A DNA stretch of 64,000 nucleotides from Gemmatimonadota bacterium (GCA_003220935.1 QHTT01000065.1:1-64000), one strand, 5' to 3'; counted from the first letter of the stretch, positions 6,550 through 16,713 are shown. Notes: generated from the sequence alone by a model not told the origin. Numbers and translations: made by a program.

Positions 6550-8226
6550 TCATTGGTCCCGGCTTCCCACAGTCACGCTGCGCGCGATTACGTAGTAGTT
6601 CGGGTCCACCTTGAAAGCGGCCGGAGTGGCCAGCTGCAGCGTCACCGTCTGCCACGCCTCGGTCGGCTGCACCACGCTGAAGCTGTCCGGCGACAAGGTG
6701 ACCTTGAGCGGCATGGCGAAGCCGGGCACGACGTCGGTCCAGCGGTAGGACAGCGTCGCTCCCGCGCTCGTGTATTCCAGCACCGGCACCTGGGTCGTGC
6801 GCAGGTACTGATCGAACACCTTGGTCAGATTGCTCCCCGCGTGCGCGCTGATATACTCCTCGACCTGCTTGCCCATCACCGTCTGGTGCCAGAACGTCTG
6901 ATTGAGCCCGCGCAGGATGCCCCGCCACTTCTCGTCATCGCCGACGATCTGCCGGATGGTGTGCAGCATGTTCCCGCCCTTGGGGTACATGTCGCCCGAG
7001 CCTTGGTCGTTGACGCCGTAGGAGGGGATGATCGGCCGGTCGTTACGGATGCCGCGGCGTGTCCCGATGGTGTAGTCGGCGCCCGCCTCCTTCCCAAAGA
7101 GGCACTCCGTGTAGAGCCCCTCGGCGTAGTTGGCGAAGCTCTCGTGCACCCACATATCGGCGTTGTCCTTCGCGGTAATGTTGTTTCCGAACCACTCGTG
7201 GGCGCTTTCGTGCACGATGATGAAGTCCCACTTCAGGCCGAGGCCCGTGCCCGAGGCGTCGCGCCCGCGATAACCGTTCGCGTACCAGTTGCCGTAGGCG
7301 ACGGCGCTCTGGTGCTCCATTCCTGTGTTCGGCACCTCGATCAGCTTGTAGCCGTCCTCGTACCAGGGGTACGGTCCGAACCAATGCTCGAAGCACTGCA
7401 GCATCGACTTGACCTGGGTGAACTGTCGCTTCGCCGCCTCGAGGTGATAGGTGAGAGGCCAGAAGTCGAGCGTCAGCGGGCCCGATTCGCCCATGAATAG
7501 ATCCGAGAAGTGCTCATAGCTACCGGCCCCGACCGCGATGGCGTAGTTATTGATTGGGTTCACGACGAACCACTCGTAGGTCGTCGTGCCGTCCGGATGA
7601 TGGGTCACGCGGCGCAGCCGCCCGTTGGAGACGTCGATCATGGGATCCGGCACAGTGAGCGCCACGCGCTGGCTGTCGGGCTCGTCGGCCTGCGTGTCTT
7701 TATTGGGCCACCACACGCTTGCGCCCATCCCCTGATCCGTGGTGACGATCCACGGCCGACCGAGGCTGTCCGCGGTCCAGGTGAACCCGCCTTGCCACGG
7801 CGGCCGCTTGGCCGGCTGCGGCTTGCCGTGGTAGTAGACCGTGATCGTCTTGCGGTCGCCTGCGCGCTGACGCGCGGTCAATGCGGCGAAGCAGGCGTTC
7901 CCCTCCCGCCGGAATCTCACCGCCCGGCCGTCCTGCACCATGCTGTCGACCTCGAGGGGCACCATCAGGTCGATTTGCATCTCCCGCGCCGGCGCGAGCA
8001 CGCGGTACGTGATACCGTTGTAGCCGGTGACACTGCTGTCCGCTGGATGGATGGCCACGTGGAGGTCGTAGAACGCCACGTCCCACCACCCGCGTCCGGG
8101 CGTCGTGAACGAGCCACGGAGCGTGTCGGCGCGGGTGAAGATTCGGCTGGCTTGAGCCACGCCGTCGGCGAAGCAACCGAGCAGGAGACCAAGCGCCAGC
8201 CACGGCCAGACGCGCCACACCCCCAT
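6550..8226 (-). CDS. M1 family zinc metallopeptidase (aminopeptidase), secreted
   Basis: The 558-residue protein starts at ATG 8224-8226 and has a hydrophobic signal segment (VWRVWPWLALGLLLGCFADG). It contains the M1 zinc site HESAHEWFGNNI at about residue 339, with the third ligand Glu in WVHESFANYAEG, spaced as in M1 peptidases. The N-terminal beta-saddle region is recognisable (FYDLHVAIHPADSSVTGYN). An exopeptidase motif may be the segment GMEHQSAVAYGNW, where M1 enzymes carry G-x-M-E-N; here the last residue is His instead of Asn. It probably trims peptides in the periplasm. A GTG lies 18 bases upstream as an alternative start. Confidence 0.88.
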   Translation of the reverse strand: MGVWRVWPWLALGLLLGCFADGVAQASRIFTRADTLRGSFTTPGRGWWDVAFYDLHVAIHPADSSVTGYNGITYRVLAPAREMQIDLMVPLEVDSMVQDGRAVRFRREGNACFAALTARQRAGDRKTITVYYHGKPQPAKRPPWQGGFTWTADSLGRPWIVTTDQGMGASVWWPNKDTQADEPDSQRVALTVPDPMIDVSNGRLRRVTHHPDGTTTYEWFVVNPINNYAIAVGAGSYEHFSDLFMGESGPLTLDFWPLTYHLEAAKRQFTQVKSMLQCFEHWFGPYPWYEDGYKLIEVPNTGMEHQSAVAYGNWYANGYRGRDASGTGLGLKWDFIIVHESAHEWFGNNITAKDNADMWVHESFANYAEGLYTECLFGKEAGADYTIGTRRGIRNDRPIIPSYGVNDQGSGDMYPKGGNMLHTIRQIVGDDEKWRGILRGLNQTFWHQTVMGKQVEEYISAHAGSNLTKVFDQYLRTTQVPVLEYTSAGATLSYRWTDVVPGFAMPLKVTLSPDSFSVVQPTEAWQTVTLQLATPAAFKVDPNYYVIARSVTVGSRDQ

Positions 8227-8253
8227 CCGCCCTGCAGCAGCCACCAGAAACCG

Positions 8254-8808: not shown

Positions 8809-9297
8809 TCAGGTGCGCTCATCTGCTGTCGGGCCGTAGATCGATGGGAGCGGCACATCGTTCAGGCGGAGGTACACGCTGAGCTGCCCGCGATGATGAA
8901 CGAGATGGTTGATGTGCGTGCGCACTACATCTCGCCGCGGCAGGGCCATGAGGACACGGTCGCCATGCTTGAGCGACCACACCACCGTGAAGTCGGCGTC
9001 CTTGGCAGCCGCGAGCGCCTGGCGGGCGGCCCGGACGTTCCTGTCGAACGCGGCGAGCAGCGAGGGCGTCGTCTCGATGCTGTATCCCGGGTAGGTCGCC
9101 AAGTTGATCTCGGTGTCCCGCAGCATCGCGGTCATCCAGCCCGGCATTCGCGCCAGCAGCTGCGCGAGATGTCCGAGGGCAAACGACTTCGGATGCGGCT
9201 TCCATGTTCCCTTCTCGCTCGGCACGCGTTCGAGCAACTTCCGCGTGGTGGCCATTTCATGATCGAATTCTGGTAAGAGCGACTCGGCGATGGTCAT
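8809..9297 (-). CDS. DinB-family protein
   Basis: The product has 162 residues from the ATG at 9295-9297. It begins MTIAESLLPEFDHEMATTRK and contains WKPHPKSFALGHLAQLLARM and THINHLVHHRGQLSVYLRLN. The triad of His residues (FDHE, LGHLA, HHRGQ) at these spacings is typical of DinB-like four-helix proteins, which bind a divalent metal and include thiol transferases. The C-terminal 'H-H-R-G-Q-L-x-V-Y-L-R-x-x-x-x-P-x-P-x-x-Y-G-P' is a strong family signature. The exact function is unknown; most members are cytosolic. Confidence 0.85.
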   Translation of the reverse strand: MTIAESLLPEFDHEMATTRKLLERVPSEKGTWKPHPKSFALGHLAQLLARMPGWMTAMLRDTEINLATYPGYSIETTPSLLAAFDRNVRAARQALAAAKDADFTVVWSLKHGDRVLMALPRRDVVRTHINHLVHHRGQLSVYLRLNDVPLPSIYGPTADERT

Positions 9298-9338
9298 AGG
9301 CCTCATGGTTCGTTGGGCGCGGCCCGGAGGGCGCCAGC

Positions 9339-9848
9339 TCAGGGAACCTGGTCCTGTTGCCCCTCGTGCCCCGACGCATGATGGGCACCGCGTTGGAACG
9401 CCAGAAATTGGTGAACGGCCGCGACGGCGGTCGCATCGCTCGTGCGGATCCGCACTTCAGCCCCGCGCGGGCGATCGACCTCCTGGTAGCTGATTGCGGA
9501 GCGCCGAGCCGCCATGAGTGATGTGCCCGGTACGGCCGTTGCGTGCACCTGGAACGGCCGCGCGAAATCTCCGGCTGCGAAGGCGGCAGCGATGGCGTGC
9601 ATGTGCTCGCGGACCCGCGCGATGCCGGCGGTGTCGGATTCGGTATCGCGGTCGAGCACGATCCGTCCACCATCGGGAAGGTCCTCAAAGACGTGGGCGG
9701 ACGTGTACTGATCGACCCCCATCACCGTCTCACCCCGCGACTGCATGGCCGCGAAGGCACTGTCGGCTCGGGGCGTCCGTTCCGCCGGACGACTACGCGC
9801 ACCCGTGCATGCACCGGGTCCAGCCGCCACGGCGAGCGCGAGCAGCAC
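9339..9848 (-). CDS. Conserved putative lipoprotein of unknown function
   Basis: I place the start at the GTG at 9846-9848, which gives a lipoprotein-like leader VLLALAVAAGPGACTG with Cys in a lipobox. The mature part reads TVMGVDQYTSAHVFEDLPDG, then VREHMHAIAAAFAAGDF, RPFQVHATAVPGTSLM and VHQFLAFQRGAHH. This order (H-x-F, D-G-G-x-I, V-R-x-H-(L/M)-x-x-I-A, H-x-x-V-P-G, FL-x-F-Q) matches a widespread small secreted family without a known role, rich in His. It starts 26 bases after the LVIVD-repeat gene and is probably the last gene of that operon. Confidence 0.55.
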   Translation of the reverse strand: MLLALAVAAGPGACTGARSRPAERTPRADSAFAAMQSRGETVMGVDQYTSAHVFEDLPDGGRIVLDRDTESDTAGIARVREHMHAIAAAFAAGDFARPFQVHATAVPGTSLMAARRSAISYQEVDRPRGAEVRIRTSDATAVAAVHQFLAFQRGAHHASGHEGQQDQVP

Positions 9849-9873: not shown

Positions 9874-11883
9874 TCAGCGCGTCGCGTTGGCCAGGTCCTG
9901 CACGGTCGCGGCGAGCGTTCCCAGCTTCCCCTGATCGACCGCGCGCGAGTCGATCGGCACCCCACCAACCACGACCACCGGCCCTCCCCGCGACTCGGGG
10001 TTGAGCTGTGTCGCCAGCTGCGTCAGCGCATCCCGGCGCTGCGGCCCGGAGAGCCGTTCGGCACGGGCGAGCGCGGACCGAGCGGCCGCGACTTTGTCGG
10101 GAGCCAGGCCGTTGGAGCGCCCCAGCTGATCCAGATAGGCGCGCGCCACCACGAAGCTCGCGGGCCACACCAGCTTGGGCTGGTCCTGGACGTTCAAATA
10201 GTCGAAGTGCACGAGCTTCGCCGCGTCGATCTCGTTCTGGGAGAGGAACCCGCTCGGCTGCAGCTCGAGGATATCGAGCCCCCGCGCGATCTCAGAGCTC
10301 ACGATGTAGCCGTTGTACCAGTACGCGGACCACGAGCCGGCGCCAACAAACTTGGTCGAGTCCATCGGGCCGCGGTCGTAATACGCGATCTCCTTGGGGT
10401 GTGCCGCATCGGTCCAGTCGAACACCGAGATGCCGCCCTGATACCAGGCCTGGACCATGACGTCGCGCCCGGGGATCGGGATCAGGGACCCGTTGTGCGC
10501 CACGCAGTTTTCGTTCGGCGTCTGCGGGGCGGGCATCTTGTAGTAGCTCTGGAACCTCATGGTGTCGCCCGACAGGGTGAAAATCGCGTCGGCGCCCCAC
10601 TCGTACTTGTCCGTCGCCCGGCACCGGGGCTGCCCGCCCCCGCCCCACTCGTCGGTGAACAGAAGCTTGGTACCATCGTTGTTGAACGTCGCCGAGTGCC
10701 AGAAGGAGAAGTTCGAATCGGCCACGGCGCCGATCCGCTTCGGGTGGGACACATCACGGATGTCCAGCAGGAGGCCGTAGCCGCCGCAGGCGCCGCCCGC
10801 CAGGCCGATGGCCGGATAGACGGTGATGTCGTGGCACTGGGTGGGCCCGGGGCGCACGCCGTTCCGCGTTCCGGGCGGCGGGGCGCCGACGATCGCATCG
10901 ACGATGCTCTGGATGGCCCCCCGCAGCGCGGCGCTGTCCGCGCCTGTCGGCGCATCGCTTCCCTGCCGCGCCTTGACGATGCTGTCCAGCATCGGCTGGA
11001 CGAATCCCAGGGGCAGGACGAACTCCATGCCCCGCACTTGCGCCGTGAACCCGCCTGCGGCACGGGCCGCGGCGGCGGCTGTGGCCGCGGCGGCGATATC
11101 TTGCGGCGTCTCCGCGTGCGTGGCCGCTTCGGTAAGATCAGCGAAGATCCGGGGGGAGCTGACGATGCTCGCAAGCTCGGGGTGAGCGAGCGGCACCTTG
11201 ATGACCTCGATCCGGAACAGTGCGGAGTTCGGGTCCTGGTCCGGCGCCAGCTTTGAGCACCCCGCGAGCTCGTTCGGCGATCGCACACCCGCGGATCCGG
11301 ATACGTAGATGTACACGTTCTCCTTGTCGTTCGGATCGTCGACGACCGTGTGCGTGTGCGAGCCACGACAGGTCTGCACATTCCCGATGTATTTCGCATT
11401 GGTGATGTCGCTGATGTCGAAGATCCGGATGCCGCGTAACCGGTCCGTGCTGACCGAGTCGTGCACCCCTTGCGTGCCGCAATCGAGGCGGCCCGACATG
11501 CCTTCACCGGAGACGAAGAGCAGGTTCTTGTAGACGGAGACGTCGCTCTGTGACGCCGGACAGAGATATCCGATCTTCAGTTTCGGTTTCTTGGGGTTCG
11601 AAATGTCCCAGACCTGAAAGCCGTTGTAGTTCCCCTGAATGACATCGCTCCCGGAGAATGAGAGATCGGAGTTTGTGACCCCGGCAAACTTCTCCGACGG
11701 CCGCGTTTTCGAGACCACCCGCAGATTCCAGGTCGCCTCGCCGGCGTTCATCGCGCCCGGGCGCAGGCCGACCCGGCGGTCGGGGGTCGGCGCCGTGGTG
11801 GACATATCGAGCTTCGAGGTGGCGCAGGCGGCGCTGGAGAGAGCGAGGGTCGCAAGCGCCAGAGACAACGACGCAGATTTCAC
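9874..11883 (-). CDS. LVIVD-repeat beta-propeller lipoprotein, copy 1
   Basis: The 669-residue product starts at GTG 11881-11883, overlapping the stop of the DUF305 gene in a GTGA. The lipobox is LSSAACATSK. Repeated 'W-D-I-(S)-x-P-x-x-P' blades are visible (GFQVWDISNPKKPKLKIGY; IRIFDISDITNAKYIG; GISVFDWTDAAHPKEIAYYD), the hallmark of LVIVD-type propellers on the cell surface. CRGSHTHTVVDD is a His-rich loop. A C-terminal helical region (DKVAAARSALARAERLSG) follows the propeller. About 75 percent of residues appear to match copy 2 by eye. Function is unknown; pairing with DUF305 suggests a joint surface role, possibly with metals. Confidence 0.8.
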   Translation of the reverse strand: MKSASLSLALATLALSSAACATSKLDMSTTAPTPDRRVGLRPGAMNAGEATWNLRVVSKTRPSEKFAGVTNSDLSFSGSDVIQGNYNGFQVWDISNPKKPKLKIGYLCPASQSDVSVYKNLLFVSGEGMSGRLDCGTQGVHDSVSTDRLRGIRIFDISDITNAKYIGNVQTCRGSHTHTVVDDPNDKENVYIYVSGSAGVRSPNELAGCSKLAPDQDPNSALFRIEVIKVPLAHPELASIVSSPRIFADLTEAATHAETPQDIAAAATAAAAARAAGGFTAQVRGMEFVLPLGFVQPMLDSIVKARQGSDAPTGADSAALRGAIQSIVDAIVGAPPPGTRNGVRPGPTQCHDITVYPAIGLAGGACGGYGLLLDIRDVSHPKRIGAVADSNFSFWHSATFNNDGTKLLFTDEWGGGGQPRCRATDKYEWGADAIFTLSGDTMRFQSYYKMPAPQTPNENCVAHNGSLIPIPGRDVMVQAWYQGGISVFDWTDAAHPKEIAYYDRGPMDSTKFVGAGSWSAYWYNGYIVSSEIARGLDILELQPSGFLSQNEIDAAKLVHFDYLNVQDQPKLVWPASFVVARAYLDQLGRSNGLAPDKVAAARSALARAERLSGPQRRDALTQLATQLNPESRGGPVVVVGGVPIDSRAVDQGKLGTLAATVQDLANATR

Positions 11884-12506
11884 TGTGGGCTCCGGTTGAA
11901 GGCGTCGAGCATGCGGTTCATACGGTCAATTTCGGTGGACTGATCCGCGAAGACGTCGGAGGCGAACCGGAAGACGGTCTCTTGTTCTCCCCCGCCCGGC
12001 GAGCCGAAGAGCTGATTCACCAGGGTGATGGCACCCTGGTGGTGCTGGATCATGAACGTCAGGAACAGGCGGTCGAACTCGGCACCCCGCGCCCGATCCA
12101 GTTGCGCGAGTTGCTCAGCGGTCAACATTCCGGGCATCAGCATGGAAGGATCCATGCCCGGCATCGTGTAGTGAGCGGGGTCCGCCTCCGGAACGGGCTC
12201 ATGCCGCTCCCGGAGCCAGCGCTGCATGAGGGCGATCTCGTCGCGTTGGCCTACGACGATTCGCTCGCACAGGGCGCGCACGGCCGCACTCGCAGCGTGC
12301 GAGGGCGCCCAGCCGGCGATCAGCACCGCCTGCGCGTGGTGGCCGATCATGCCGGTCATGAAGTGCACGTCGGCTGACGTGTAGGGGGGCCGACCGCTGT
12401 CGGGATGCACCTGCGCCGCGGGGGAGACGATGTGCTCCGCCGGCGCCTGGTGGGTGGTCGTGGCGCACGCCCCAGCGGTGATGATCGCGAGGAATGTCGT
12501 CTTCAT
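11880..12506 (-). CDS. DUF305 family lipoprotein, copy 1
   Basis: The 208-residue protein starts at ATG 12504-12506. Its leader AIITAGACATTTH carries a lipobox Cys. It has the two DUF305 half-repeats: VHFMTGMIGHHAQAVLIAGW and, about 100 residues later, LTFMIQHHQGAITLVNQLFG. DUF305 proteins form ferritin-like helical bundles with paired His motifs and are often found with copper or other metal handling genes. The Met-rich linker (YTMPGMDPSMLMPGMLTAEQ) between the repeats would suit soft-metal binding; that is inference. Its stop overlaps the LVIVD gene start, so the two are made together. Confidence 0.85.
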   Translation of the reverse strand: MKTTFLAIITAGACATTTHQAPAEHIVSPAAQVHPDSGRPPYTSADVHFMTGMIGHHAQAVLIAGWAPSHAASAAVRALCERIVVGQRDEIALMQRWLRERHEPVPEADPAHYTMPGMDPSMLMPGMLTAEQLAQLDRARGAEFDRLFLTFMIQHHQGAITLVNQLFGSPGGGEQETVFRFASDVFADQSTEIDRMNRMLDAFNRSPQ

Positions 12507-12538
12507 CACGGCTCGGTCGAGGCCTGGCGGTTCCCCTG

Positions 12539-14533
12539 CTACAGCCCGGCTCGGCCCGCGCCGCTCCCGTTGGCCAGATCCGTCACGGTTGCGGCGAGCA
12601 TCCGCACTTTGGCCTGATCGGGAGTTCCCTGCGAATCACTGTTCAGCTGTGTCGCGAGCTGCGTCAGCGCATCACGGCGCTGCTGCCCGGAGAGCCGTTC
12701 GGCGCGGGCGAGCGCGGTCCGTGCGGCCGCGACCTTGTCGGGCGCCAGGCCGTTGGAGCGCGCCAGCTGGTCCAGATAGGCGCGCGCCACCGCGAAGCTC
12801 GCGGGCCACACCAGTTTGGGCTGGTCCTGGACGTTCAAATAGTCGAAGTGCACGAGCTTCGCCGCGTCGATCTCGTTCTGCGACAGCAATCCGCTCGGCA
12901 CGAGCTCGAGCACGTCGAGCCCGCGCCCGATTTCCGAGCTGACGATGTAGCCGTTGTACCAGTACGCAGACCACGAGCCGGCGCCGACGAGCTTGGTCGA
13001 GTCCATCGGGCCGCGGTCGAAATACGCTATTTCTTTGGGATGCGCCGGATCGGTCCAATCGAACACGGAGACGCCGCCCTGATACCAGCCCTGGACCATG
13101 ATGTCGCGGCCGGGCACGGGGATCAGCGAGCCGTTGTGCGCCACACAGTTTTCGTTCGACGTTTGCGGCGCCGGCAGCTTGTAGTAGCTCTGGAACTTCA
13201 TCGTGTCATGGGCCACCGTGAAGATCGCGTCGGCTCCCCACTCGGGCTTGTCGGTCACGCGGCACTTGGGCGCCAGCCCCCCGCCCCACTCGTCGGTGAA
13301 CAGCACCTTGGTGCCGTCGTTGTTGAACGTCGCCGAGTGCCAGAACGCGAAGTTCGAATCCGCCGCCGCGGCGATGCGCCGCGGGTTGGCCGGGTCGCGA
13401 ATGTCGAGGATCACGCCGTAGCCTGCGCATGCGCCACCCGCGAGCCCCAACGCCGGGTAGACCGTGATGTCATGACACTGCACCGGCCCGGGCTTGGGAC
13501 CGGGCGCGGGCGACGGGTTGAAGATCTTGTCGATGATGGCCTGCACGTTGGCGCGGAGGGTAGCGCTGTCCGCCGCCGTCGGCGCCCCGCTGCCGCCGCG
13601 CGCCTTGACGATGCTGTCGAGCTGCGCCGCGACGAAGCGGGGCCGCAGCACGTGCTCGGTGCCGAAGAACGTTGCCGTGAACCCGCCCTTGGCGCGCGCT
13701 TCCGCGGCTGCCTTAGCCGCGGCGGCGATGTCTTCCGGCGCCTCGCCGTGCACGGCGGGCTCGGTGAGGTCGGCGAGGATCGCCGGCTTGGTCACCACGT
13801 GTGCCTGCTCGGGATGCGCCAGCGGCACCTGGATCACCTCGATACGGAACCGCTCGCTGTTCGGGTCCTTGTCCGGCGCGAGGTCCGAGCACCCTGGGAG
13901 CTCATTGGGTGAGCGGACCGGGGCCCCACCAGACACGTAGATGTAAACGTTCGCCGTGTCCTTCGGGTCGGTCAGCAGCGTGTGTGTATGCGAGCCACGA
14001 CACGTCTGCACCGCGGTGATGGGCTTGGGATGCGTGATGTCGGAAATGTCGAAGATGCGGATGCCGCGCATGCGGTCCTTGCTCACCGAATCCGCCACGC
14101 CCTGCGTGCCGCAGTCGAGCCGGCCGTTGAAGTCCTCGCCGGATACGAAGAGGAGGTTGCGGTACACCGAGACGTCGTTCTGCGCGTCGGGACAAACGTA
14201 GGACGTCACCAGCACCGGCTTGGCCGGCTGCGCGATGTCCCACACCTGCAACCCGTGGAAGTTGCCCTGGATGACGTAGTGTCCGGTAAAGGCGAGATCC
14301 GAGTTGAGAAACCCGAAGTCGCCCGGGTTGGTATCGTCCGTGAACTGCGCCGGCTTCGGCGCCGCGGACACGAGGCGCAGGTTCCACGCCGCTTGGGCGG
14401 CGTTCATCCACCCCGCGCGCAGCCCGAGGCGCCGATCGGGGCTCGGCGCCGTGGGCGACATGTCGAACTTCGTGGCGGTGGCGCAGGCGGCGACGACCGT
14501 GCCGATCGCGAGCAAAACAGACTTAGATCTCAC
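12539..14533 (-). CDS. LVIVD-repeat beta-propeller lipoprotein, copy 2
   Basis: This is a 664-residue paralogue of the gene at 9874-11883. I set the start at GTG 14531-14533, overlapping the preceding DUF305 stop in a GTGA. A longer open frame upstream is only read-through of that gene in another frame. The lipobox is GTVVAACATA. Blades include GLQVWDIAQPAKPVLVTSYV, IRIFDISDITHPKPITAVQ and GVSVFDWTDPAHPKEIAYFD. The CRGSHTHTLLTD loop is kept. The helical tail (NGLAPDKVAAARTALARAER) is nearly identical to copy 1, showing either recent duplication or strong constraint. Role unknown. Confidence 0.8.
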   Translation of the reverse strand: MRSKSVLLAIGTVVAACATATKFDMSPTAPSPDRRLGLRAGWMNAAQAAWNLRLVSAAPKPAQFTDDTNPGDFGFLNSDLAFTGHYVIQGNFHGLQVWDIAQPAKPVLVTSYVCPDAQNDVSVYRNLLFVSGEDFNGRLDCGTQGVADSVSKDRMRGIRIFDISDITHPKPITAVQTCRGSHTHTLLTDPKDTANVYIYVSGGAPVRSPNELPGCSDLAPDKDPNSERFRIEVIQVPLAHPEQAHVVTKPAILADLTEPAVHGEAPEDIAAAAKAAAEARAKGGFTATFFGTEHVLRPRFVAAQLDSIVKARGGSGAPTAADSATLRANVQAIIDKIFNPSPAPGPKPGPVQCHDITVYPALGLAGGACAGYGVILDIRDPANPRRIAAAADSNFAFWHSATFNNDGTKVLFTDEWGGGLAPKCRVTDKPEWGADAIFTVAHDTMKFQSYYKLPAPQTSNENCVAHNGSLIPVPGRDIMVQGWYQGGVSVFDWTDPAHPKEIAYFDRGPMDSTKLVGAGSWSAYWYNGYIVSSEIGRGLDVLELVPSGLLSQNEIDAAKLVHFDYLNVQDQPKLVWPASFAVARAYLDQLARSNGLAPDKVAAARTALARAERLSGQQRRDALTQLATQLNSDSQGTPDQAKVRMLAATVTDLANGSGAGRAGL

Positions 14534-15132
14534 TGGGGGCTCCGTTGAGGGGGTTGAGACAGGACGGCGAGCATGCGGGTCATGCGGTCGATCTCCGCCG
14601 TCTGATCGGCGCTCACGTCGGAGGCGATCTGAAACAACAGCCCGTCCCGGGCGGCGCCCGGCGTGTCGACCAGCTCGCGCACCATGGTGAGCGCGCCGCG
14701 GTGGTGCTGGATCATGAAAGTGAGGAACAGGCGGTCGAACTCGGGCCCGCGGGCGCTGTCGAGCTGCGCCAGCTGCTCGGGCGTCAGCATCCCGGGCATG
14801 AGCGTCGGGTGATCCATCCCGGGCATCAGGAAGCCGTGCGCGTCCGGTTCCGGCACCGGCTGATGGTGCTCCCGCAGCCAGCGCTGCATGACCGCGATCT
14901 CGTCGCGTTGCCCGACGACGATGCGTTCGCACAACGCGCGCAGGGCCGGACTGGCGCCGTGTGCCGGCGCCCAACCGGCGATCAGCACCGCCTGTGCGTG
15001 GTGGACGATCATGTCCGTCATGAAGTGCACGTCCGCCGCGCTGTAGCGGGCCGGGGCGCTGTCGGCCTGGGCTCGCGCCGCGGTCGCGATGAGCGCCAGC
15101 GCCCCCGCCCCGACCACGCACGCTCGCTTCAT
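14530..15132 (-). CDS. DUF305 family secreted protein, copy 2
   Basis: The 200-residue product starts at ATG 15130-15132 and has a signal peptide (ACVVGAGALALIATAARA-QA) rather than a lipobox, unlike copy 1. The DUF305 motifs are VHFMTDMIVHHAQAVLIAGW and LTFMIQHHRGALTMVRELVD, joined by a Met/His-rich linker (HGFLMPGMDHPTLMPGMLTP). It is the first gene of the second DUF305-LVIVD unit, so a promoter is expected between it and the oxidoreductase gene that starts at 15358 on the other strand. The 225-base divergent gap holds a degenerate attC-like stretch. Confidence 0.85.
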   Translation of the reverse strand: MKRACVVGAGALALIATAARAQADSAPARYSAADVHFMTDMIVHHAQAVLIAGWAPAHGASPALRALCERIVVGQRDEIAVMQRWLREHHQPVPEPDAHGFLMPGMDHPTLMPGMLTPEQLAQLDSARGPEFDRLFLTFMIQHHRGALTMVRELVDTPGAARDGLLFQIASDVSADQTAEIDRMTRMLAVLSQPPQRSPQ

Positions 15133-15305: not shown

Positions 15306-15357
15306 GACGCTGCTTTGGTGCGACGCCGATCAACCTCACGTGACCCATGGAGACGCC

Positions 15358-16713
15358 GTGAAGACGCACATCTATTCCCGCCGCGAATTCGTCGGCATGA
15401 GCGCGGTGGCCGCCGGCGCATCCCTCGCCGGGAAGACGCTCGGACCGCTCCCACCCAATCTCCTCCCCGATCCCAAGGCCGTCGCCGCCAGTGACCGGGT
15501 CCGCTTCGGCATGATCGGGATCGGCATGCAGGGTTCGGGGCTCTTGTCCGAAGCGATCAGGCTGCCGGGCGTCGAATGCGCCGCCGCCTGTGACCTGTAT
15601 GACGGCCGACACACCCTGGCTCGGGAGATCGTGCGCGCGGATCTGCCGGTCACGCGCCGCTATCAGACCCTCCTGGACGACAAGGACATCGACTGCATCG
15701 TGGCGGCGGTTCCCGATCACTGGCACAAGCAGGTGGTCGTGGACGCGGTGAGCGCGGGCAAGGACATCTACTGCGAGAAGCCGATGTCGCACAGCGCCGC
15801 CGACGGCGTGGCCATGGTGGATGCGGCGAAGCGGACCAGCCGCATCGTGCAGATCGGTTCGCAGCGGGTGAGCTCCCAGATCTGCGCCAAAGCCAAGGAG
15901 CTGATCGCGCAGGGCACGCTGGGCGAGCTGATGCTCGTCGAAGGCTGGCTCGGACGGAATGATCCCACCGGGGCGTGGGAGTATCCGCCGCCCCCCGATC
16001 TCTCCCCGAAGAATCTCGACTGGGATACCTGGCAGGGGACCGTGCCCAAGCGGCCGTTCGATCCGTTCATCTTCGCGCGCTGGCGCTGCTGGAAGGAGTA
16101 CGGCACTGGCGTGGCCGGCGACCTGCTGGTGCACCTGATCAGCGGGATGATGTTCATGGTGGGTATCAACACCCCGCCCACGCAGGCGAGCGCGGTCGGC
16201 GGGATCCGACGCTGGAAAGACGGCCGCAATATGCCCGACGTCCATGCTGTCGTGTACGACTACGACGGCCTGCCAGTGTACATGCGGCTGAACCTGGGAA
16301 CCGAGATGCCGGAGATGTATCGCATCCAGGGTTCGAAGGGCCTGCTCGAGGTCACGGGATCCAGCCTGAGCTACACGCCCCAATCCGGCAAGGATCAATA
16401 CCCCAGCTATTACACCGGCAGCTACCCTCGCGCGCTGCGGGACGCCTACCTCACGAAATGGCACCAGGACAACGATCCGAAGATGGGCCAGCAAGTGATG
16501 ATGCCGGAGACGATCTCATTCAGCGGGCCCGACTTCGACGACGTGCGGCCGCACCTGTGGACGTACTTCGAGGCGGTGCGCACCCGGAAACCCGTAGTGG
16601 AGGATGTCGTGTTCGGTCACCACGCGGCGCTGGCGTGTCACATGGCGAACGAGTCGTACTTTCGGAAAACCAGCGTGTCCTGGGACGAGGCGTCGAAGAG
16701 TATCAAGAGCTGA
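15358..16713 (+). CDS. Gfo/Idh/MocA family oxidoreductase, Tat-exported
   Basis: I choose the GTG at 15358 because GGAGAC lies just upstream; another GTG at 15340 is possible. The product (about 451 residues) begins with a Tat signal, YSRREFVGMSAVAAGASLAG. The Rossmann motif VRFGMIGIGMQGSG follows, then IDCIVAAVPDHWHKQVVVDA and DIYCEKPMSH, where E-K-P supplies the conserved lysine of the family. The C-terminal half is the alpha/beta domain (WDTWQGTVPKRPFDP, AGDLLVHLISGM). Such exported NAD(P)-dependent enzymes usually act on sugars or cyclitols. It is the only plus-strand gene between 15.2 and 29.7 kb, unlike the cassette genes around it. Confidence 0.87.
   Translation: MKTHIYSRREFVGMSAVAAGASLAGKTLGPLPPNLLPDPKAVAASDRVRFGMIGIGMQGSGLLSEAIRLPGVECAAACDLYDGRHTLAREIVRADLPVTRRYQTLLDDKDIDCIVAAVPDHWHKQVVVDAVSAGKDIYCEKPMSHSAADGVAMVDAAKRTSRIVQIGSQRVSSQICAKAKELIAQGTLGELMLVEGWLGRNDPTGAWEYPPPPDLSPKNLDWDTWQGTVPKRPFDPFIFARWRCWKEYGTGVAGDLLVHLISGMMFMVGINTPPTQASAVGGIRRWKDGRNMPDVHAVVYDYDGLPVYMRLNLGTEMPEMYRIQGSKGLLEVTGSSLSYTPQSGKDQYPSYYTGSYPRALRDAYLTKWHQDNDPKMGQQVMMPETISFSGPDFDDVRPHLWTYFEAVRTRKPVVEDVVFGHHAALACHMANESYFRKTSVSWDEASKSIKS

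Follow-up and report, generated by a model that had tools for sequence, protein, structure and literature searches.

To our knowledge, DUF305 is a large family with a single characterised role, the copper binding of CopM, and with no known partner protein. CopM of Synechocystis (DUF305, PF03713) binds Cu(I) with high affinity, is induced by copper and has a role in copper resistance; its gene belongs to copMRS together with those of a two-component system, and the protein acts beside copper efflux (PMC4335983). In the copper-induced curA operon of Myxococcus xanthus, the gene of a PQQ_2-repeat lipoprotein adjoins that of a DUF305 lipoprotein (PMC3707914). The described propellers to which the ones treated here can be compared are the LVIVD and choice-of-anchor B families (PF08309, TIGR04312) and the phosphotriesterase of Sphingobium sp. 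TCM1, a haloalkylphosphorus hydrolase (PDB 5hrm). We found no publication in the open-licence literature that names DUF305 together with LVIVD. Both families are known, and what appears to be new, as far as sequence can tell, is the dedicated propeller partner of a CopM-like protein.

The locus lies in a stretch of 64,000 nucleotides from a Gemmatimonadota bacterium (QHTT01000065.1, positions 1 to 64000), and "the window" refers to this whole stretch. Two DUF305 genes (D1 and D2) and two propeller genes (L1 and L2) form a minus-strand series, D1-L1-D2-L2, that runs from 15132 to 9874 as two units placed head to tail (Table 1). The coordinates of these units in the preliminary description, and the overlap of the D stop with a GTG-started L in both, were borne out. 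Its wording of a "translationally fused" unit has to be corrected, since D and L are separate overlapping reading frames, coupled rather than fused. At both D/L junctions CAG-TGA overlaps GTG-A(A/G)A, with 4 nt common to stop and start, and the CGGAG ahead of each GTG is a Shine-Dalgarno-like stretch. The L proteins of the two units are 74.5% identical, the D proteins 65.8%, and the nucleotide sequences 75-77%. Because L1 and D2 are so closely spaced, the four genes can form one operon and, judging from their layout, may be transcribed as such; no sigma-70-like promoter or terminator pattern above chance was found in the region, the gap between the units included. No DUF305 gene besides D1 and D2 was found in the genome, the completeness of which is about 85%.

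Table 1. Genes, overlaps and spacing of the D1-L1-D2-L2 series, with positions counted from the first nucleotide of the window.
Feature	Position	Strand	Description
D1	14530..15132	-	DUF305/CopM-like secreted protein, 200 aa; PF03713 143 bits
D1 stop / L1 start, GTGA overlap	14530..14533	-	CGGAG 6-7 nt upstream
L1	12539..14533	-	predicted seven-bladed propeller lipoprotein, 664 aa, GTG start; AF2 model, Foldseek 5hrm
Intergenic gap, unit 1 to unit 2	12507..12538	-	32 nt; too short to demand its own promoter
D2	11880..12506	-	DUF305/CopM-like protein, 208 aa, lipobox-like ITAGAC; PF03713 141 bits
D2 stop / L2 start, GTGA overlap	11880..11883	-	CGGAG 6-7 nt upstream
L2	9874..11883	-	predicted propeller lipoprotein, 669 aa, GTG start

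Several other genes surround the series. Past L2, after 25 nt, a GTG-started ORF on the same strand (9339-9848) encodes a lipoprotein-like product of 169 aa with the motif LAVAAGPGAC. It has no match in Pfam or NCBIfam and no relative at the tandem loci of two congeners; a relative with 65% identity lies upstream of another D-L pair (L068, 1124-1588). Farther along the minus strand are a DinB-family protein (8809-9306; PF05163, 32.5 bits) and an M1-aminopeptidase-like secreted protein (6550-8244), in which HESAHEWFGNN was read by eye. A Gfo/Idh/MocA-type oxidoreductase (15340-16713, plus strand) is divergent from the D1-L2 cluster.

The D proteins match PF03713 over its full length (positions 1-151 of 151), with 143.2 bits for D1 and 141.2 for D2 against a cut-off of 27. 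CopM itself was retrieved by the D family profile with an E-value of 1.4e-25, and the NCBIfam CopM equivalog NF049983 scored 80.3 and 80.6 bits for D1 and D2, under its cut-off of 90. The AlphaFold2 (AF2) model of D1 matches the DUF305 structures 2qf9 and 3bt5, as well as the CopM structures with Cu(I), Cu(II) and Ag. D1 and D2 resemble Synechocystis CopM in having the double DUF305 helical fold, the two MxxHH motifs and a Met-rich linker, and in being exported. D1 begins with a plain signal peptide, MKRACVVGAGALALIATAARAQA, and carries MIVHHA, MIQHH and the linker LMPGMDHPTLMPGM; D2 carries GMIGHHA and MIQHH, and its lipobox was read by eye. The paired His motifs described for both proteins are therefore present in part as stated: MIQHH occurs in both, whereas GMIGHHA belongs to D2 and D1 has DMIVHHA in its place. 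Six residues covering both HH pairs (M41, H44, H45, M140, H143 and H144) are invariant in 72 D sequences. By sequence and by modelled fold, D is a relative of CopM. Unlike CopM, D stands ahead of a propeller gene, and copper genes do not recur beside it.

The assignment of the L proteins to the LVIVD propellers holds for the fold and for a relative, and falls short for the family score. LVIVD (PF08309) gives 18.0 bits for L1 and 15.9 for L2, under the Pfam cut-off of 20.2, and choice_anch_B (TIGR04312) gives 58.1 and 47.3, under a cut-off of 100; a relative of L in Nonomuraea passes LVIVD with 52.6 bits. The AF2 model of L1 (pLDDT 83.9, pTM 0.85) has seven four-stranded blades, with a helical insert at about 266-338 and a C-terminal helical domain at about 552-654, and propellers fill its Foldseek match list. 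The N-termini of L1 and L2 show lipobox-like VVAAC and SSAAC, read by eye. L shares recognisable GxxVWDIxxPxxP blade motifs with the LVIVD and choice-of-anchor B propellers but differs from them in the insert, the C-terminal domain and a His/Asp ring, and on its sequence it is a distinct subfamily, apparently tied to DUF305.

This ring was recognised from the starts of the inner strands of the blades (FLNSDLAF, AQNDVSVY, RGSHTHTL, QCHDITVY, AFWHSATF, CVAHNGSL and GSWSAYW). Strand starts of this kind surround the opening of the central channel in propellers. Residues D79, D120, H182, H354, H399, H466 and W521 of L occupy the same blade register and are invariant in 35 sequences, Nonomuraea included. 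The four His and two Asp would accordingly lie opposite one another around the channel mouth, as sequence and secondary structure indicate. The metal binding earlier proposed for the pair is thus supported for D, by the homology with CopM and the invariant HH pairs, and plausible for L, by the invariant His/Asp ring.

The nature of the L protein can be read in more than one way. L could be a 5hrm-like metallohydrolase of the phosphotriesterase type that acts on an envelope ester, with D supplying or protecting its metal centre. The Sphingobium enzyme has LVIVD-type blades and is the best structure both by sequence (E 4e-4) and by fold, where its E of 1.4e-10 leads the second match (3.8e-7) by some three orders of magnitude, and its HH alignments with L, reliable for blade-sized pieces only, reach 88-90% probability. 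Over the whole chain, however, the fold alignment has a TM of 0.41-0.55, an rmsd above 10 A and an identity of 13-14%, and the locus of the enzyme has no DUF305 neighbour. Ligand equivalence is likewise unproven: we dropped the comparison because, of the positions that we took to be the metal ligands of 5hrm (201, 389, 407 and 475), three misfit the 5hrm sequence and only E201 agrees with it. We regard this reading as unlikely. We give still less credence to a copper oxidase-like propeller in the manner of SBP56 or methanethiol oxidase, which we consider highly improbable. A CopM-like partner does suggest copper, and the Nonomuraea relative of L gives sub-threshold scores for SBP56 (19.6 bits, cut-off 34) and MtoX (14.6, cut-off 650), but these lie far under the cut-offs, and neither L1 nor L2 matches SBP56 or MtoX.

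We surveyed the association of the two families in 295 genomes of the class, in which any match was found for L in 253 and for DUF305 in 246. Counting strong matches (L with E below 1e-60, D with E below 1e-15; tallied by hand, with the sums checked against the totals), both families are present in 240 genomes, L only in 4, D only in 1 and neither in 50. The corresponding Fisher p of 1.3e-50 is inflated by shared descent. A scan of named genomes yielded 80 loci with L. Most are from Gemmatimonadota; Fodinibius and Balneola (Balneolota), Rhodothermales and several MAGs labelled Gammaproteobacteria are also represented. The gene immediately upstream of L is D in 69 of the 80 and in 69 of the 74 informative loci, six having been set aside where the sequence ends within about 150 bases upstream of L (L065, L071, L076, L094, L096 and L125); the five others are unpaired with D (L064, L081, L093, L127 and L136). 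A 4-nt overlap is available in 29 of 57 pair instances outside the window, some of them redundant, and gaps of a few to about 60 nt separate D from L in the remainder. Extra copies are common, either as D-L-D-L (L080, L101) or as D-L-L (L120, L122, L128, L140). The D-L-L clusters of three contigs labelled Gammaproteobacteria (L120, L122, L128) are near-identical to those of genomes of the Gemmatimonadota class, two of which (G299 and G181) score the same, and the MAG label may be wrong.

The preliminary description was to be judged by whether the two families occur independently of each other; when we looked for this, we found near-perfect co-occurrence within the class and adjacency in a fixed order. 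We are nearly certain that the D-L pairing is conserved. DUF305 occurs without the L propeller in other phyla, so that L depends on D more than D depends on L. With L, D and antisense frames excluded, no third gene family recurs in more than 7 of the 80 loci, and no metal gene is recurrently found beside the pair at these loci in Gemmatimonadota.

The history of the tandem was examined with trees of 24 D and 24 L proteins taken from the same pairs. The two trees are congruent: each separates a unit 1 clade from a unit 2 clade, and both clades take in other genera. The window's unit 1 clusters with its counterparts in two congeners and with a unit of G182; its unit 2 clusters with the corresponding units of the congeners and with units from G081 and G027. 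A recent tandem duplication is ruled out, as each unit clusters with single-copy units of other genera. Because the trees agree, the pair is best read as having been duplicated as one unit, before these genera split and therefore before the genus of the window. Among the relatives looked at, the tandem layout occurs in this genus only; in other genomes the units lie apart, dispersed to separate contigs and still as D-L pairs. The suggested division into one anchored and one periplasmic unit did not hold, given that the unit-1 D of the sister genome G182 has a lipobox that the unit-1 D of the window genus lacks. A lipobox Cys is common among the D proteins of both lineages and variable within each.

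Outside this group, L relatives adjoin DUF305 genes at two places in Nonomuraea gerenzanensis (Actinomycetota), in divergent orientation. They are 44-45% identical to L and have neither the helical insert nor the C-terminal domain. Nonomuraea was also the only match when L was looked for on plasmids, and its record is chromosome-sized. Given the divergent orientation, the link between D and L is independent of one inherited operon layout. These results bear on the idea that the linkage is inherited gene order only, with no functional contact. Most genomes sampled belong to one class and their counts are not independent, as such an idea would have it, but order and adjacency persist over several phyla, Nonomuraea retains adjacency with a changed orientation, and the units were duplicated together and are still paired where they have dispersed. 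We consider gene order alone a quite improbable explanation.

DUF305 genes also stand beside other propellers. Metal-resistance, metal-transport or copper-protein genes occur within about 3-4 kb of 16 of 18 sampled plasmid DUF305 loci, and 8 of the 18 have, at the same range, the protein F510_1955, whose repeats are of the BNR propeller type. On metal-resistance plasmids of actinobacteria the arrangement is similar to ours in that DUF305 stands beside a secreted BNR-repeat protein (L157, L158, L160, L161, L162, L164, L189, L192), and it differs in that the partner is a short BNR-type protein rather than L, with metal-resistance genes around it. DUF6153 and copper genes often join these two genes, and the name "glycosylhydrolase" given to F510_1955 may hide a metal-related role. 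Natural D-L gene fusions were sought and rejected, the long DUF305 frames being RCC1-DUF305 fusions or mere long open frames. In G022, G059, G071, G083 and G128, an RCC1-DUF305 fusion is followed by a separate L. Loci with DUF305 fused behind an RCC1-type propeller and a separate L downstream are L144, L146, L147, L152 and L153, from several genomes of one genus. In the curA operon, genes E and F (MXAN_3417/3416) likewise place a repeat-protein gene directly beside a DUF305 lipoprotein gene, but there within a nine-gene copper operon and with repeats named PQQ_2, not LVIVD, a comparison made by description only.

This variety of partners can be taken in two directions. D and L might stand side by side without any transfer of metal, L being a surface propeller for structure or ligand binding (adhesion or scaffold) and D buffering or detoxifying nearby metal. 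Propellers are often scaffolds, and the pairing of DUF305 with unrelated ones, such as F510_1955 and the RCC1 fusions, could mean that any propeller suffices. A scaffold would nevertheless not need four His and two Asp in an invariant ring at the same register, and L proteins from across the class share 60-75% identity and long motifs without variation; we find this explanation rather doubtful. In the other direction, the LVIVD-like L, F510_1955, the RCC1 fusions and the Myxococcus PQQ_2 protein could be instances of one partnership, in which DUF305 proteins would be dedicated metal carriers for secreted beta-propeller metalloproteins and L a widespread undescribed envelope metalloenzyme. This generalisation is speculative, and we do not expect it to hold in full.

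For the pair itself, the conserved pairing points to a role of the small protein in handling metal for its larger partner, and we tentatively favour, as a possibility, that D is a metal carrier that serves the metal site of L. D would be an exported CopM-like protein that, in the periplasm or at the membrane, binds copper or a related transition metal. L would be a seven-bladed beta-propeller, likewise exported and held at the membrane where it retains the lipobox, with a putative metal site built from the invariant His and Asp at the mouth of the central channel. The translational overlap and the fixed order would keep the two proteins produced together; D would most likely load metal into L or exchange it with L, and L would act as an envelope metalloprotein, either an enzyme or a metal-holding receptor. 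We infer the physical contact of D and L, copper as the metal, the metal site of L, the direction of transfer and any catalysis by L; as no metal gene recurs beside the pair in Gemmatimonadota, copper is proposed from the D family alone.

Some four fifths of the genomes sampled in the class carry the pair, often in several copies per genome. DUF305 thereby gains an obligate-looking partner, and together with a hitherto unannotated propeller this domain of unknown function becomes a two-component system open to testing.
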